From: Verrucomicrobium sp. BvORR106
Lineage (GTDB): Bacteria > Verrucomicrobiota > Verrucomicrobiia > Verrucomicrobiales > Verrucomicrobiaceae
Direction: 5' to 3'
NCBI RefSeq assembly: GCF_000739655.1
Contig: NZ_BATR01000118.1
Coordinates: forward strand, 1-64,000
DNA: 64,000 bases
The notes beneath the pieces are model-generated. The model worked only from the letters and a program-made list of their open reading frames with translations. It did no database searches and had not been told where the DNA came from. Both the position numbers and the translations under genes were made by a program. Of this stretch, positions 3,614 to 9,702 are shown in pieces. Every line of letters starts with the position of its first letter. Position 1 is the first letter of the stretch.

Positions 3614-4840
3614 CTACTTCTTCTGTCTGCCCACGTCAGGCAGGAACGCCGTCAGCAGACCGATCAGCGGCAGATACGCGCACACTTGGTACACGTAGTT
3701 GATGCTGGTATGGTCAGCCAGATTGCCCAGCAGGGCGGAACCGATGCCGCCCATGCCGAAGGCAAAGCCGAAGAAGAGTCCCGAGATCATGCCCACCTTG
3801 CCCGGCACCAGTTCCTGGGCATACACCAGGATGGCTGAGAAGGCGGAGGAGAGCACCAGTCCGATGATCACACTCAGCACCGCCGTGGTGTACAGGCCTG
3901 CATGCGGCAGCCACAGGGTGAAGGGAGCCACACCCAGGATGGAAGCCCAGATCACACGCTTGCGACCGAAGCGGTCACCCACCGGCCCACCCAAGATGGT
4001 CCCAGCGGCCACGGCGAACAGGAACACGAACAGGTAGATCTGTGCGCTCTGCACCGTCAGATGGAAGCGGTCCATCAGGTAAAAGGTGTAGTAGCTGGTC
4101 ATGCTGGCCAGGTAGAAGTACTTCGAGAAGATCAACGCTCCCAGAATGGTCAGTGACCACACGATGGTGGAGGTGGGAAGAGCCGCATGGGCCGAGTCCA
4201 GAGACTTCGCAGACTTACGATGCACCCGGTGCAGGTTGCGGGCCTGCCAAAGGCCCACATTCCACAGCACCGCTACACCCAGAAATGCCACCACCGAAAA
4301 CCAGGCGATGGAGCCCTGGCCATGCGGCACAATGATCAAGGCGGCCAGCAAGGGGCCAATGGAACTGCCAGCGTTGCCACCCACCTGGAACAGAGATTGC
4401 GCCAGACCGCGGCGACGTCCTGCCGCCATGTGTGCGATGCGGGAAGCTTCAGGGTGGAAGATGGCGGAGCCCATGCCCACCAGTGCGGCTGAACCCAGAA
4501 TAGAGGCAAAGCTGCCTGCCATCGAGAGGGCCACCAGCCCACACAGAGTCAGTCCCATACCGATGGGCAGTGAGAAAGGCAGGCTGCGCTTGTCCGTGTA
4601 CCAGCCCACTAGAGGCTGCAGCAGCGAGGCGGTGACTTGAAAGGCAAAGGTGATCATCCCAAGCTGGCTGAAAGTAAGATGGTAGGACTCTTTCAGCAGG
4701 GGGTAGATCGAGACGAGGAGCGCCTGGATCGTATCGTTAAGCAGGTGGGAAAAGCTGATGGCGAACAGCACAGCGTACACCGTCGTCTCCGCCGTCCGCA
4801 TGGCGGGCGACGGCATGTCTTCATTGCAGGTGGATTCCAT
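3614..4840 (-). CDS. MFS transporter, fosmidomycin-resistance (Fsr) type
   Basis: 408 residues with twelve predicted membrane spans and no signal peptide. The pattern matches the Fsr branch of the major facilitator superfamily: 'SHLLNDTIQALLVSIYPLLK' in the first span, 'GMGSAIFHPEASRIAH' (the conserved G..A.FHPEA motif) after span 4, and 'FQVGGNAGSSIGPLLAALI' in span 5. Family members export fosmidomycin or other small molecules using the proton gradient; the native substrate here is unknown. An AraC-family regulator lies 64 bp upstream on the same strand, so co-transcription and control by it are plausible. Confidence 0.88.
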   Translation of the reverse strand: MESTCNEDMPSPAMRTAETTVYAVLFAISFSHLLNDTIQALLVSIYPLLKESYHLTFSQLGMITFAFQVTASLLQPLVGWYTDKRSLPFSLPIGMGLTLCGLVALSMAGSFASILGSAALVGMGSAIFHPEASRIAHMAAGRRRGLAQSLFQVGGNAGSSIGPLLAALIIVPHGQGSIAWFSVVAFLGVAVLWNVGLWQARNLHRVHRKSAKSLDSAHAALPTSTIVWSLTILGALIFSKYFYLASMTSYYTFYLMDRFHLTVQSAQIYLFVFLFAVAAGTILGGPVGDRFGRKRVIWASILGVAPFTLWLPHAGLYTTAVLSVIIGLVLSSAFSAILVYAQELVPGKVGMISGLFFGFAFGMGGIGSALLGNLADHTSINYVYQVCAYLPLIGLLTAFLPDVGRQKK

Positions 4841-4904
4841 AACCCTGCTATGATCCTGGATCCCGCGGGGGACGCAAAATCAGTGGCAGGTGAGAAGCTG
4901 CATT

Positions 4905-5795
4905 TTAGTGGTACTTTTCTCGGATCTGATCCCGGAACGTCTCTGGTGAAGCTCCGGAGTACCGGCGGAAGAATCGGCTGAAGTACGACGGGTCGTGAAA
5001 GCCCAGGTCGTAGCCAATCTCGGAAACGCTCATGTCGGAATGCAGCAACAGGCGCTTCGCGTCGAGCAGGCGCCGCTGGCGGATGATGTCCCCAGCCGAC
5101 CGTCCGGTCTGTTCGTGAACAATGTCATTGAGATGATTGGCGCTTACGCCCAGCATCTCTGCATAACCACCTACCGTGGTTATTTCTTTGAATCGCTGTT
5201 CGACGGAGAGGTGGAAGTGCCGCACCAGTTGCCCGGACCGGGAGGCTTCCTTATACGGATGCAGGCGGGCATAGAGTCGGTTTACCCTCACGAATAAGAC
5301 CCGCAGGATGGAGCGCAGGGCGTCCGCGGCACCGGGGAGTGCCGTGTCAAACTCCGACTGCAGAAGGGGGACCAGCGGCAGAATACCATCGGGATCCCCG
5401 TCAGGCAGTTGCAGCAGTGCTGCGACATCCACGGAGAAGAAGAAGGGGTAATCGTACAGAACGCTCGGCGGGGTGGAGCGTAGATCAAAGAACTCCTGGG
5501 AAAAGGAAAGGGTGGTGCCTTCCAGATCGGCCCCGGGGCGGACGGTGTGCACCTGGCCCGGACTGAGGAAGACGAGGGTGGTGCCACTTACCTGGTACTC
5601 CTGGAAGTCATGCATCACCTGAGCCTTTCCGTGGAGGATAAAGACCTGGAAGAACTCGTGATAGTGAGGCTGGAGCCGCTCGGGATCCATGCGGACCGAG
5701 TCCATAAAGGGAATGACCACCACACCCTGCTGCCGAAGTTCAGCCTGACCTGTTGCAGTCATGCCGTAATGGGGAATGGAGTCTCGCCGGATCAT
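4905..5795 (-). CDS. AraC family transcriptional regulator
   Basis: 296 residues from an ATG at 5795, chosen because GGAGG lies nine bases upstream; a longer frame would need a TTG at 5837. The N-terminal cupin sensor domain shows 'PHYHEFFQVFILHGKAQV' and 'LSPGQVHTV'. The C-terminal part carries two helix-turn-helix motifs: 'GVSANHLNDIVHEQTG' and 'VSEIGYDLGFHDPSYFSRFF', followed by 'SPETFR'. It lies 90 bp from, and divergent to, the desaturase/DUF3419 operon starting at 5885, and upstream of the Fsr transporter. Either or both are reasonable targets; this is inferred from position only. Confidence 0.9.
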   Translation of the reverse strand: MIRRDSIPHYGMTATGQAELRQQGVVVIPFMDSVRMDPERLQPHYHEFFQVFILHGKAQVMHDFQEYQVSGTTLVFLSPGQVHTVRPGADLEGTTLSFSQEFFDLRSTPPSVLYDYPFFFSVDVAALLQLPDGDPDGILPLVPLLQSEFDTALPGAADALRSILRVLFVRVNRLYARLHPYKEASRSGQLVRHFHLSVEQRFKEITTVGGYAEMLGVSANHLNDIVHEQTGRSAGDIIRQRRLLDAKRLLLHSDMSVSEIGYDLGFHDPSYFSRFFRRYSGASPETFRDQIREKYH

Positions 5796-5884
5796 CGGTT
5801 CGTCCCTCCATGCTTGTCTCGCCGGATGATTTGTCAAATGACTGAGGATGAGCGGTCACACCGGACAAAGGTGTATTGACACCC

Positions 5885-6643
5885 ATGGCGAAATCACGAA
5901 GACTTTGTCGCATGAGTGCTGGAAGCATCGGTTCCCCCGTCGATCATCCGCCGTCGCTCGCCACTGCACCGCATATTCTGGCTGCTGCCAGGGCGGTGTT
6001 GGTGGAGCGTCCCATCATCTCCCAGTCGTATTTCACACGCCTGAGGGATGGTTCCATGTCGCATGCTGAGTTCGTCCGTTCCCAGCAGCAGTTTTATTTC
6101 GCAGTGCGCTATTTTTCGAGGCCCATTGCGGCGTTGGTTTCGCGGTGTCCGGATTCGACCATGAGGATGAATCTCGTGGAAAATCTGGCGGAGGAACAAG
6201 GGGGCTTTCTGCCATCCCATGCTCATGATCGCACGTTCCTGAGTTTCCTGGAGAGCTTGGGGAGCACGGCTCCAAACAAAGAGGGGGCCGAAGTCCAGGC
6301 CTTTAATTGTGCTCTGCTCGGAGTTTGCTTGGGCGAGGAACTGGAGACGGCCTTTGCTTGTCTTGGCATCATTGAACTGGCTTTCGCGGACATCTCCGCA
6401 TGGATCGGCAGTGCCGTGGTGGATCGCGGATGGATTGCCCCGGACCGGTTGGTGCACTATGCCCTGCACGCCGAGCTGGATCATCGTCATGCGGAGGAGT
6501 GCTTCGTCGTCATCGAGCCACGTTGGGAGGAATCACTGTCCCGGAGACAGTCCATTCAGCGAGGCCTCGAGCTGGGGCGGCATCTTTTCTCCCGCCTCTA
6601 TCTGGATCTGGATGCGTTGAACCCTGCACAGGCTGACGGATGA
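5885..6643 (+). CDS. Heme-oxygenase-like diiron oxidase (HDO/CADD-type), iron-containing redox enzyme family
   Basis: 252 residues, all helical in character, matching the TenA/CADD-like heme-oxygenase fold. Counting from the ATG at 5885, candidate metal ligands are E103 or E104, H112, E164, H195, D199 and H202. The spacing H-x3-D-x2-H in the last helix ('HAELDHRH') is the one found in CADD-type diiron or iron/manganese oxidases, so a dinuclear metal centre is likely. Known HDOs use O2 to cleave or desaturate amino acids or fatty acids (CADD, UndA, BesC, SznF). The TGA stop overlaps the next start (ATGA), so it is translationally coupled to the desaturase. The start is uncertain: ATG 5912 is an alternative. 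Confidence 0.8.
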   Translation: MAKSRRLCRMSAGSIGSPVDHPPSLATAPHILAAARAVLVERPIISQSYFTRLRDGSMSHAEFVRSQQQFYFAVRYFSRPIAALVSRCPDSTMRMNLVENLAEEQGGFLPSHAHDRTFLSFLESLGSTAPNKEGAEVQAFNCALLGVCLGEELETAFACLGIIELAFADISAWIGSAVVDRGWIAPDRLVHYALHAELDHRHAEECFVVIEPRWEESLSRRQSIQRGLELGRHLFSRLYLDLDALNPAQADG

Positions 6644-7620
6644 ACGACACGCAGGATCGTCCCCGGCTAAATGCTCAACTGGCCCGGGAACTGCATGAGC
6701 ATCACCCCGTGCGGCACTATGTGCGGCTGGGATCTTTCGTGGCCATCTATGCAGCTTGTGCCAGTACGGTCTGGTGGTGCTCTGCGATAGTGGCATCACA
6801 ACCAGCATGGTGGTTGCTCATGCTTCCGCTCTATCTGGCAGCGGCTGGAGCCCTGCATGGGATCAGCCTGTTCACTCACGAGGCGGTCCACAATACCTTG
6901 TCGTCGAATCCTGTTTGGAATCGGGTCTTGGGGGCTGCCTGTGCCATCCCTGTCTTGCAGAACTGCTCCGCCTACCGGGTCCTGCACCTCCGTCACCACC
7001 ACCATCTGGGGGAGGGCGGGGACCCGGATCACTATGCCAACTATTCCCGGTGGTCCTGGATGGTGTCCGTGTTGAACTGGCTGCGGTTGCTCGTGGGTTA
7101 TCCCGTGTACATCGTTGCCATCCCCATCCTCGGATTCAAACATGGAACGAGTCGGGACCGCGTGGGAATCCTGGCGGAGTTCGCGGCCACCCTGGCGCTG
7201 GTGGTGGCCGTCGTGTTGGCTCCTCTTCCCACAGGGCTGCTGTGGCATGGCTGGGTGGTGCCGATGATCTTCATCAACTTCATGGTGAATGTGCGGGGGA
7301 TGAGTCAGCACACGCTGCTGCCAGAGGCGACTGATGAGGTGCGGGGCACGCGCAGTATTCTCACCGGGCCGGTGGTCTCGTTCTTCATGTGCCACGAGAA
7401 CCTGCATCTGGAGCATCATCTCTATCCGGGCGTGCCGTGGTATCATCTGCCCAAAGTGCATCAGGCACTTCGACCGCAATTGGCGGCGATGGGGGCACCG
7501 TACATCGGGTCCTACTCGGCGTTTGTTTTGAAATTTATGCGCAACAGTGTGAATCGGGGCCATGAAGTGGTCAGAGACGGGGACCGGACAGCGGTCGGGG
7601 ACGAGGGGAGGAACTCGTGA
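6640..7620 (+). CDS. Membrane fatty acid desaturase
   Basis: 326 residues with the three histidine clusters of membrane-bound diiron desaturases: HEAVH at residues 80-84, HLRHHHH at 116-122 and HLEHH at 256-260, the last in the usual 'NLHLEHHLYPGVPWYHLP' context. Hydrophobic spans lie near residues 30-75, 145-165 and 180-215. It would introduce a double bond or hydroxyl into an acyl chain at the cytoplasmic membrane face. It overlaps the preceding diiron oxidase gene by four bases and the following DUF3419 gene by four bases (GTGA), so it belongs to a translationally coupled set. Whether it acts on free phospholipid acyl chains or on the product of the neighbouring transferase is not known. 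Confidence 0.92.
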   Translation: MNDTQDRPRLNAQLARELHEHHPVRHYVRLGSFVAIYAACASTVWWCSAIVASQPAWWLLMLPLYLAAAGALHGISLFTHEAVHNTLSSNPVWNRVLGAACAIPVLQNCSAYRVLHLRHHHHLGEGGDPDHYANYSRWSWMVSVLNWLRLLVGYPVYIVAIPILGFKHGTSRDRVGILAEFAATLALVVAVVLAPLPTGLLWHGWVVPMIFINFMVNVRGMSQHTLLPEATDEVRGTRSILTGPVVSFFMCHENLHLEHHLYPGVPWYHLPKVHQALRPQLAAMGAPYIGSYSAFVLKFMRNSVNRGHEVVRDGDRTAVGDEGRNS

Positions 7621-8741
7621 GCGGGGGTGGGAAACTGCCGCCACCTGATGCTTGGGCGGTGGAAGCGGCCACCTGGCCCCTGGCGTTCGCCCAGGTTCGG
7701 GAAGACCCAAGATTGGATCTGGAGGTGATTCGATTGCTCCCGCCACGTGCGGAGGTGGTGATGATCGCTTCCGGTGGGGAGACGGCGGTATGTCTGGAAA
7801 GGTATGGTCTGGGCAGGCTGACGGTTGTGGATGTCAATCCAGCCCAACTGGCGTTGGCGCGGTTGAAACGCCACCTTGCCCGGCATCATGCAGTCGTCTT
7901 TTCATTGCCTCTGCTCGGACATGCGAGCATGCCACCCGGAGCCAGACAGGTGGCGCTTTCCGCGCTGTTGGATACTCTGGAGCTGGACAGGGGAGTCCTA
8001 GGGCCACTGGAAGGCGTTGCGGCACTGGGGCCGGATCATGTTGGGCGCTATGAAATTACCTTTGCCGAGTTGTGGAAGGAGCTTTCCGCCAACCCTGAGA
8101 CTCTCCAGGTGCTGCTCATGTCCGATCGGATGCCGGGAGCCGCAGACTTGCTGGGTCCTGAGACCCAGTTGGGACAATTGTTGGATCAGGCACTGAGCCG
8201 GGTCATGAGTCTGCAGAATCTTGTCTGTCTCTTTGGAGAGGAGGCCACACGCAATCCCCGCCAGCCTTTTGACCGGCATTTTGCCGCGCGACTTCGGGCG
8301 AATGCTGCGCGAGGCTTCGCCGCAGAGAACCCCTTTCTCTGGCAGATGCTGGTCGGCATGTTTCCGGCGGCCCAGCCGTATGACTGGCTGCTGCCCGGTC
8401 CTCTCTCTTCCCAGGTGGACTGGCTGCCTCCAGAGCGCATCCAGTACCTGCCGGGCAGGATGAATGAGGTGCTGGAGAGCCTGCCGGATGCGAGTGCGGA
8501 TTTCGTCCATCTATCGAACATTCTGGACTGGCTTACTCCGGAGGAGGCTACGGCCAGCCTGAAGAGCGCGGCCCGAGTGTTGCGTCGGGGCGGGCGGGTG
8601 CTGGTTCGCCAGTTGAATTCCACGCTGGAAATCCCCGCCTTGCAGGCAGGATTGCAGTGGGACGCCGCTCTGGGGGCAAGCCTTCACGCCAGAGACCGCA
8701 GCTTCTTCTATACTGCGATTCACGTGGGAAGAAAGGAGTGA
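7617..8741 (+). CDS. DUF3419 / BtaA-like SAM-dependent 3-amino-3-carboxypropyl transferase
   Basis: 374 residues beginning with GTG inside the stop of the desaturase gene. The N-terminal half has the DUF3419 signature: 'FAQVREDPRLDLEVIRLLP' followed by the SAM-binding region 'MIASGGETAVCLERYG' and 'VVDVNPAQLALARLK' (residues about 25-85). BtaA moves the 3-amino-3-carboxypropyl group of S-adenosylmethionine to diacylglycerol, giving diacylglyceryl-homoserine, the precursor of betaine lipids. The C-terminal part contains a second methyltransferase-like region with 'ADFVHLSNILDWLTPEE' and 'VLRRGGRVLVRQLN'. No BtaB-type N-methyltransferase is in the operon, so the product may be something other than standard DGTS. 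Family assignment is strong; substrate is inferred. Confidence 0.85.
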   Translation: MSGGGKLPPPDAWAVEAATWPLAFAQVREDPRLDLEVIRLLPPRAEVVMIASGGETAVCLERYGLGRLTVVDVNPAQLALARLKRHLARHHAVVFSLPLLGHASMPPGARQVALSALLDTLELDRGVLGPLEGVAALGPDHVGRYEITFAELWKELSANPETLQVLLMSDRMPGAADLLGPETQLGQLLDQALSRVMSLQNLVCLFGEEATRNPRQPFDRHFAARLRANAARGFAAENPFLWQMLVGMFPAAQPYDWLLPGPLSSQVDWLPPERIQYLPGRMNEVLESLPDASADFVHLSNILDWLTPEEATASLKSAARVLRRGGRVLVRQLNSTLEIPALQAGLQWDAALGASLHARDRSFFYTAIHVGRKE

Positions 8742-8742
8742 G

Positions 8743-9702
8743 ATGGAGGTGTTGTGCTTTCAGCATGAGGTTCCCTCCGGGCTGGAGCTTGCGCTGAGAG
8801 AGTTCGAGGAACAATTTTCCTATCCGCTCGGAGAAGGGGAGTCGTTTCACGTGTCTCATGGCGGCGGATACTTGAACTTCTTTCGCGCCATGGGGCAGGC
8901 CAGCCTCTTTGTCGCCATGGGACGGGAAAAGGTGTTGGGCACTTTGGTGGGCGTGCGGCGGCCCATGAGGCTGGCAGACGGGCAAATGATCTCGGCCACG
9001 TATGTGTGTGACCTCAAGGTGGCGTCTGGAGGGCTTCGCGGCCGGGTGTTGTTGAGTCTGGGTAGGGCCTTGGAGGAGGTCTGGCGGGAATCTGGCGGGG
9101 GACCGGGGTACGGGGTGGTGATGCAGGGGACCTCCCAGGCACCCACTGCCTACACAGGCAGAGGCCTCCTCCCTGGATTCACGAACGTGGCGGATCTGGT
9201 GATTTTCAGGGTGCCAGTTCGTGAAGTCGAGGCGCTGGATGAAGAGGTTCGCGTAGTGGATCTTGCAGAGGCGCAGCGAATATTCATTGAGTTGACCGTG
9301 AGCGGAATTGTCCCCATCGGAGGGATGCCCTCGAGTCGGTCCACAATGATTCCCGTGCCGCTTGTCTTGGGAGATCCGGTTCGCGCATATGGCGTGGTCG
9401 AAGATACCCGGCTGGGGAAGCGACTGGTCGTCAACGGGGGCCGGGAAATGAAAGCGGCCCACCTGTCTCACTTTGCGTTTCGTTCCGCCGAGGAGGGCTC
9501 ACGCTTGGTTCGCGCTGCTTTGTCTGAGGCTGAACGTGCCGGGTTCCCGGCGCTGTTTGTGTGCGTGCCTGCGGCCAGGGCACACGCTTTGCAGAAGTGT
9601 CTGGCAGATCTCGAGCCCACGGTGGCTCCGGCCACGGTGTATGGTCACAACATCGGTTCAGACGGCGGGGCCGAGTGGTGGGTGCATTCCTCGGAGATTT
9701 GA
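8743..9702 (+). CDS. GNAT-like acyltransferase, last gene of the lipid-type operon
   Basis: 319 residues starting one base after the preceding stop. The N-terminal half looks like a GNAT N-acyltransferase: 'SLFVAMGREKVLGTLVGVRR' (strands 2-4), 'ISATYVCDLKVASGGLRGRV' leading into the acyl-CoA pyrophosphate loop, then a helix 'LLSLGRALEEVW'. The C-terminal half seems to be a second, weaker GNAT-like repeat ('FAFRSAEEGSRLVRAALSE'). It could acylate the free amino group made by the DUF3419 enzyme, in the way lyso-ornithine-type aminolipids are built, but this is inferred only from operon context. Confidence 0.65.
   Translation: MEVLCFQHEVPSGLELALREFEEQFSYPLGEGESFHVSHGGGYLNFFRAMGQASLFVAMGREKVLGTLVGVRRPMRLADGQMISATYVCDLKVASGGLRGRVLLSLGRALEEVWRESGGGPGYGVVMQGTSQAPTAYTGRGLLPGFTNVADLVIFRVPVREVEALDEEVRVVDLAEAQRIFIELTVSGIVPIGGMPSSRSTMIPVPLVLGDPVRAYGVVEDTRLGKRLVVNGGREMKAAHLSHFAFRSAEEGSRLVRAALSEAERAGFPALFVCVPAARAHALQKCLADLEPTVAPATVYGHNIGSDGGAEWWVHSSEI

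Follow-up and report, generated by a model that had tools for sequence, protein, structure and literature searches.

A conserved bacterial operon combining a BtaA-like DUF3419 protein, an N-myristoyltransferase-like acyltransferase and a heme-oxygenase-like oxidase: a candidate N-acyl aminolipid-type pathway

Four adjacent genes of Verrucomicrobium sp. BvORR106—encoding a heme-oxygenase-like di-metal oxidase (HDO), a membrane desaturase or hydroxylase, a DUF3419 protein related to BtaA, and a tandem-GNAT protein resembling eukaryotic N-myristoyltransferase (NMT)—belong to a conserved biosynthetic operon that has apparently not been described so far. That the four-gene set constitutes one functional unit is close to certain. 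The chances appear evenly balanced that it encodes an undescribed N-acyl aminolipid-type pathway, in which a 3-amino-3-carboxypropyl group would be transferred from S-adenosylmethionine (SAM), N-acylated, and oxidised by the HDO; every chemical step, and the acceptor as well, we infer.

Layout and conservation of the operon

All four open reading frames lie on the plus strand of the window, i.e., the whole stretch of 64,000 nucleotides that was analysed. The HDO gene (5885–6643), whose start is an uncertain choice between ATG 5885, an in-frame TTG at 5876, and ATG 5912, is followed by the genes for the desaturase (6640–7620), the DUF3419 protein (7617–8741), and the NMT-like protein (8743–9702). 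When the coordinates were rechecked, the overlapping or touching gene ends listed in the original prediction proved exact throughout: an ATGA at 6640 joins the HDO stop to the desaturase start, a GTGA at 7617 joins the desaturase stop to the DUF3419 start, and a single base (8742) separates the last two genes.

Scanning a DUF3419 alignment against 84,980 species genomes yielded 75 loci. Removal of a remote, mostly actinobacterial clade, and addition of loci from genome searches and of the window itself, resulted in a set of 63 operon-clade loci. The NMT-like GNAT gene adjoins the DUF3419 gene in 61 of them, the remaining two being cut by contig ends. An HDO gene is present at 55 of the 63; contig ends cut six of the eight exceptions, and a genuine absence is confined to L080 and L083, two early-branching loci with complete flanks, in neither of which a profile search found a hidden copy. 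The desaturase gene occurs at 38 of the 63 loci and a gene for a PAP2-type (PAP2_3) membrane protein at 15. The operon loci, mostly from metagenome-assembled genomes (MAGs), are spread over at least six phyla (Verrucomicrobiota, Planctomycetota, Pseudomonadota, Chlamydiota, Elusimicrobiota, and Myxococcota). Absence of synteny in related genomes had been named beforehand as an outcome that would refute the pathway reading; a co-occurrence search found synteny kept in related genomes and across these phyla.

Gene order is far from constant. The arrangements HDO-DES-(PAP2)-DUF3419-GNAT, DES-(PAP2)-DUF3419-GNAT-HDO, DUF3419-GNAT-HDO, DUF3419-GNAT-HDO-DES, HDO-DUF3419-GNAT, and GNAT-(DUF3419-HDO), where DES denotes the desaturase, are all found. 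In a Chlamydiota MAG (L060), a single open reading frame of 610 residues represents DUF3419 fused to the HDO, and DUF3419 is fused to a related GNAT domain in three actinobacterial loci (L075, L078, and L090). A linkage that survives both reordering and fusion is the hallmark of one functional unit. Among 289 Verrucomicrobiota genomes, the GNAT protein is found in only four, strong HDO matches occur in the same four, and in each of these both genes adjoin DUF3419. A search of viral contigs revealed no relative.

The encoded enzymes

The third gene product matches DUF3419 (PF11899, 1.5e-25; 90.7 bits against a curated cut-off of 28.2). Its collinearity with canonical BtaA extends from end to end, and it keeps both the SAM half (ASGG...VDxNPAQ) and the helical insert; its AF2 model (pLDDT 94) displays a class I SAM fold, the helical insert being large. 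A solved BtaA structure was not among the structural matches of this model. At the position of the CWED motif of canonical BtaA, however, the operon protein reads FAQVREDP, i.e., REDP instead of CWED. Phylogenetically, the operon DUF3419 proteins form a clade of their own, remote from canonical BtaA and distinct also from a second clade of Verrucomicrobiota that is uncharacterised, although the tree was built by a quick method and has long branches, which leaves its deeper joins unsure. The genome from which the window derives contains no second DUF3419 gene.

Canonical BtaA and the operon protein also keep different company. In Verrucomicrobiota, a BtaB-like methyltransferase adjoins canonical BtaA in at least nine of 12 loci, and an NMT-like protein or an HDO in none of the 12. 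BtaB, originally noted as absent, is not found near DUF3419 at the operon loci, where the NMT-like acyltransferase and the HDO take its place. The product of the operon would share with the betaine lipid DGTS, made by BtaA and BtaB, a SAM-derived aminocarboxypropyl group. Since N-trimethylation and N-acylation are competing fates of one amine, the exchange of BtaB for the NMT-like protein suggests that the latter acts on the α-amine introduced by DUF3419, and N-acylation probably replaces N-methylation in the operon pathway. The second verrucomicrobial DUF3419 clade (L011, L104–L117) carries CWED and DIFEYM motifs. At L104 and L011, its genes lie without adjacent BtaB, NMT-like, or HDO genes, between a gene for an upstream protein (with a PEP-utiliser domain in L104) and one for a multi-spanning protein downstream that contains an SRKxVHV motif.

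Pfam gives no match for the fourth protein itself; within its family, 22 of 53 members match Acetyltransf_9 and 17 match Acetyltransf_1. These matches and the tandem GNAT fold of the AF2 model (pLDDT 94) bear out the initial description as GNAT-like. The best 50 Foldseek matches of the model are all N-myristoyltransferases, a result from which the margin over other tandem GNATs cannot be read. Residues 1–319 of the model align with residues 156–496 of human NMT1 (Z 21.6, 287 residues, rmsd 3.6 Å, 12% identity), and its last residue, I319, superposes on Gln496, the final residue of NMT. The C-terminus, ending in -SSEI-COOH in the window, ranks with the most strongly conserved segments of the family. 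The ending [EDQ]-[IV]-COOH, without extension, is seen in 51 of 61 members; of the others, seven are truncated at contig ends, and the termini of three (L056, L062, and L073) are disrupted or ambiguous. In NMT, the catalytic base is the free C-terminal carboxylate, and removal of the last three residues leaves almost no activity (PMC7048800). The operon protein is thus probably an NMT-like N-acyltransferase, and the structural alignment predicts that its own C-terminal carboxylate serves as the catalytic base, a prediction missed by sequence annotation. Nothing in the model corresponds to the part of NMT that precedes residue 156, and the acyl donor may therefore be a different one. The likeness is structural only: given the 12% identity and the lack of a match to the NMT Pfam signature among the 53 family members, a shared ancestry with NMT is unproven. 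The features common to eukaryotic NMT (EC 2.3.1.97) and the bacterial protein are the tandem GNAT fold from end to end and a free, conserved C-terminus in the position of the catalytic carboxylate. In contrast to the operon protein, which has a shorter N-terminus and is, as far as visible, an operon partner, NMT is a modifier of proteins.

The first gene product matches Haem_oxygenas_2 (PF14518, 8.5e-16), in agreement with its prediction as an HDO. Its nearest solved structures are CADD (5.2e-10 in the PDB search) and 4-aminobenzoate (pABA) synthase. Of the CADD-like ligand set proposed initially, E103, E164, H195, D199, and H202 held, whereas H112 has to be replaced by H114; position 112 is mostly L or A among the operon HDOs and is not conserved. 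In an alignment of 44 operon HDOs, E103 and H202 are present in 43 sequences each and H114, E164, H195, and D199 in all 44, which corresponds to the three histidines and three carboxylates (3H/3C) expected of the superfamily. CADD and the operon HDO thus have the family and the six ligands in common, but their gene partners differ. The position of Tyr27 of CADD is occupied by F50 in the operon HDO (F or L in 42 of the 44 sequences, never Y), and no lysine is conserved near that of Lys152; Tyr27 and Lys152 are the sacrificed residues of the self-sacrificing pABA synthases. The match to NCBIfam TIGR04305 reaches 40 bits, below the cut-off of 200 bits. With both sacrificed residues missing, the operon HDO should not be a pABA synthase, and this candidate function was discarded. 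Known HDOs catalyse C–C cleavage, desaturation, azetidine closure, or nitrogen oxidation, mostly on amino or fatty acids (PMC13108848). The fusion of DUF3419 to an HDO suggests that the substrate is the product of DUF3419, either as such or N-acylated. A further HDO, DtpC of Acinetobacter, was set aside, its operon being a different one that includes katE (PMC13232832).

The second gene product is a membrane protein of the FA_desaturase family (PF00487, 4.6e-45, 154.8 bits). The three histidine boxes recognised at the outset (H80xxxH84, H116xxHH120, and H256xxHH260) show no variation across 32 sequences, and the protein has the highest mean column identity among the four operon alignments (53%), albeit on the smallest set of loci. 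Its best NCBIfam matches are a model of the arginine hydroxylase GntB and then carotenoid enzymes, all far below cut-off. The PAP2 superfamily, to which the additional membrane protein belongs, includes lipid phosphatases and phosphotransferases, which would suit a role in providing the acceptor.

Proposed pathway and competing explanations

Three consecutive reactions are proposed. First, judging from its homology, the DUF3419 protein would move the 3-amino-3-carboxypropyl group of SAM to the hydroxyl of an acceptor, most likely diacylglycerol or another lipid alcohol. Second, as its fold and the exchange of partners suggest, the NMT-like tandem GNAT would acylate the new α-amine in place of N-methylation by BtaB, with a long-chain acyl-CoA or acyl-ACP as the putative donor and the enzyme's own C-terminal carboxylate as the general base. 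Third, the HDO may use O2 to oxidise the amino-acid part before or after N-acylation, a step proposed from ligand conservation and the DUF3419-HDO fusion that could be a desaturation, a C–C cleavage, or an N-oxidation. The desaturase may tailor the acyl chain or the head group, and the PAP2 protein may be the source of the lipid acceptor. The operon is best read as N-acylating a SAM-derived aminocarboxypropyl product. The original prediction had the enzymes build, N-acylate, and oxidise a homoserine-type lipid. Co-occurrence of the genes, a full-length BtaA homologue with its SAM half, the lack of BtaB, and an NMT-like N-acyltransferase agree with this scheme; its lipid part holds as a fit, the PAP2 gene at 15 loci and the desaturase gene at 38 being compatible with a lipid product, and the H112 detail does not stand.

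A lipid acceptor is not forced, since PAP2 and desaturase genes are missing at many loci, and whether the acceptor is a glycerolipid is about an even question. The same enzymes could, with appreciable but lesser probability, produce a small N-acyl amino-acid metabolite—a signal, a metal chelator, or an antibiotic-like compound—without any glycerolipid. DUF3419 would then place its group onto an amine, a thiol, or a hydroxylated amino acid, the NMT-like enzyme would N-acylate the product, and the HDO would desaturate, cleave, or N-oxidise it. Such a route would suit the preference of known HDOs for amino or fatty acids (PMC13108848) and the many loci, including all gammaproteobacterial ones, that have neither PAP2 nor desaturase. 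Against it, PAP2_3 and the FA_desaturase-family protein are recurrent in verrucomicrobial and planctomycete loci, which show no recurrent ligase or carrier genes for a special acceptor.

A further argument for a small metabolite comes from the distant, mostly actinobacterial DUF3419 clade. This clade keeps a related GNAT (profile-profile probability 97.9), and its neighbours form a natural-product set comprising KASIII, an AurF N-oxygenase, an amino acid:ACP ligase, a thioester reductase, a ferritin-like protein, and PPTase/ACP. Clusters of this kind are seen at L079:2279–9098 and, similarly, at L072, L074, L077, L084, and L086, in Actinobacteria and Gemmatimonadota; they likely represent an unexplored natural-product pathway. 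Di-metal oxidases of another fold seem to stand in for the HDO, and the acceptor is probably other than diacylglycerol. The distant clade speaks for aminocarboxypropyl transfer, N-acylation, and di-metal oxidation as a common core, but weakens diacylglycerol as a universal acceptor.

It is rather improbable that the operon DUF3419 protein, as a SAM-fold enzyme, catalyses a different SAM reaction—azetidine-2-carboxylate cyclisation, release of homoserine lactone, or ordinary methyl transfer—whose product is acylated by the NMT-like enzyme without attachment of a lipid head group. The missing canonical CWED, the separate clade, and a remaining fold that is the ordinary class I SAM fold speak for such an enzyme. 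However, collinearity with BtaA extends over the full length, the SAM motif and the helical insert are retained, and aminocarboxypropyl transfer is, to our knowledge, the sole activity assigned to DUF3419. Very unlikely is a role of the NMT-like enzyme in acylating protein N-termini or lysines, as eukaryotic NMT does, with the neighbouring enzymes supplying an unusual acyl group. Although the NMT fold is matched over the whole length, including the catalytic C-terminus, the strict linkage and the fusions of DUF3419 to the HDO and to a related GNAT suggest that the amine to be acylated is the DUF3419 product, and no gene for a peptide substrate recurs at the operon loci. A chance run of four unrelated enzymes on one strand is refuted by the linkage kept in about 60 genomes and by the gene fusions.

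N-acylation of the DUF3419 product, the preferred reading, could in its fullest form lead to a membrane lipid or lipid-like metabolite of a class new to bacteria, namely an N-acylated, oxidised homoserine ether made via a genuine bacterial counterpart of NMT that acylates a small amine with a C-terminal carboxylate base. This is a tentative proposal, itself rather doubtful; were it true, bacteria would harbour relatives of NMT that act on small molecules.

Related systems, novelty and flanking genes

N-acyl aminolipids of the OlsB/OlsF/OlsH type are known in planctomycetes (PMC12493201). Those pathways likewise place an N-acylated amino acid in a membrane lipid; they differ from the operon in that other acyltransferases are employed, the amino acid is not built from SAM, and no HDO takes part. 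Stieleriacines, i.e., N-acyl tyrosines from a genus (Stieleria) in which one operon is found, were considered and rejected: the published route invokes N-acyl amino acid synthases and, as a proposal, a nitroreductase-type desaturation, and the work mentions neither DUF3419 nor heme oxygenase (PMC12479983). In the searchable literature, which includes few subscription papers and preprints, the papers naming DUF3419 deal with algae, the betaine lipids of plants, a smut fungus, and a picoalga, and none describes the operon; aminocarboxypropyl transfer is nowhere linked to HDOs, and no paper retrieved under the terms used names a bacterial NMT-like protein. With the operon, bacterial aminolipid chemistry would gain a SAM-based branch, in phyla about whose lipids little is known. 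Its NMT-like enzyme has a fold and a C-terminus treated as eukaryotic in the reviewed literature and thereby opens a testable view of the origin of NMT chemistry, and an HDO of unassigned chemistry gains a substrate context in what its operon and fusion partner produces.

Upstream of the operon, the minus strand of the window encodes a divergent AraC-type regulator (4905–5837; HpaA-like; PF12833, 3.3e-25), a possible regulator outside the conserved core, and an MFS transporter (3614–4840; PF07690) that is probably outside the system. The two genes (3614–5837) are kept beside the operon only in a genome of the same genus. Pho-box control, as for phosphate-starvation lipids, was discarded as a candidate, the window containing four matches against 5.4 expected and hence no signal above chance. 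A gene for a membrane protein without Pfam match (L010:2879–3574) overlaps the end of the HDO gene in the divergent operon found in a MAG labelled Lentisphaera. About 500 bases (L009:6787–7284) separate the HDO from the desaturase gene in Haloferula BvORR071, where a small open reading frame (6678–7238) that is absent from the window operon overlaps the HDO end. Beside the same Haloferula operon (L009:11386–18974) lie two very large opposite-strand open reading frames, one of which begins like an NRPS condensation domain.
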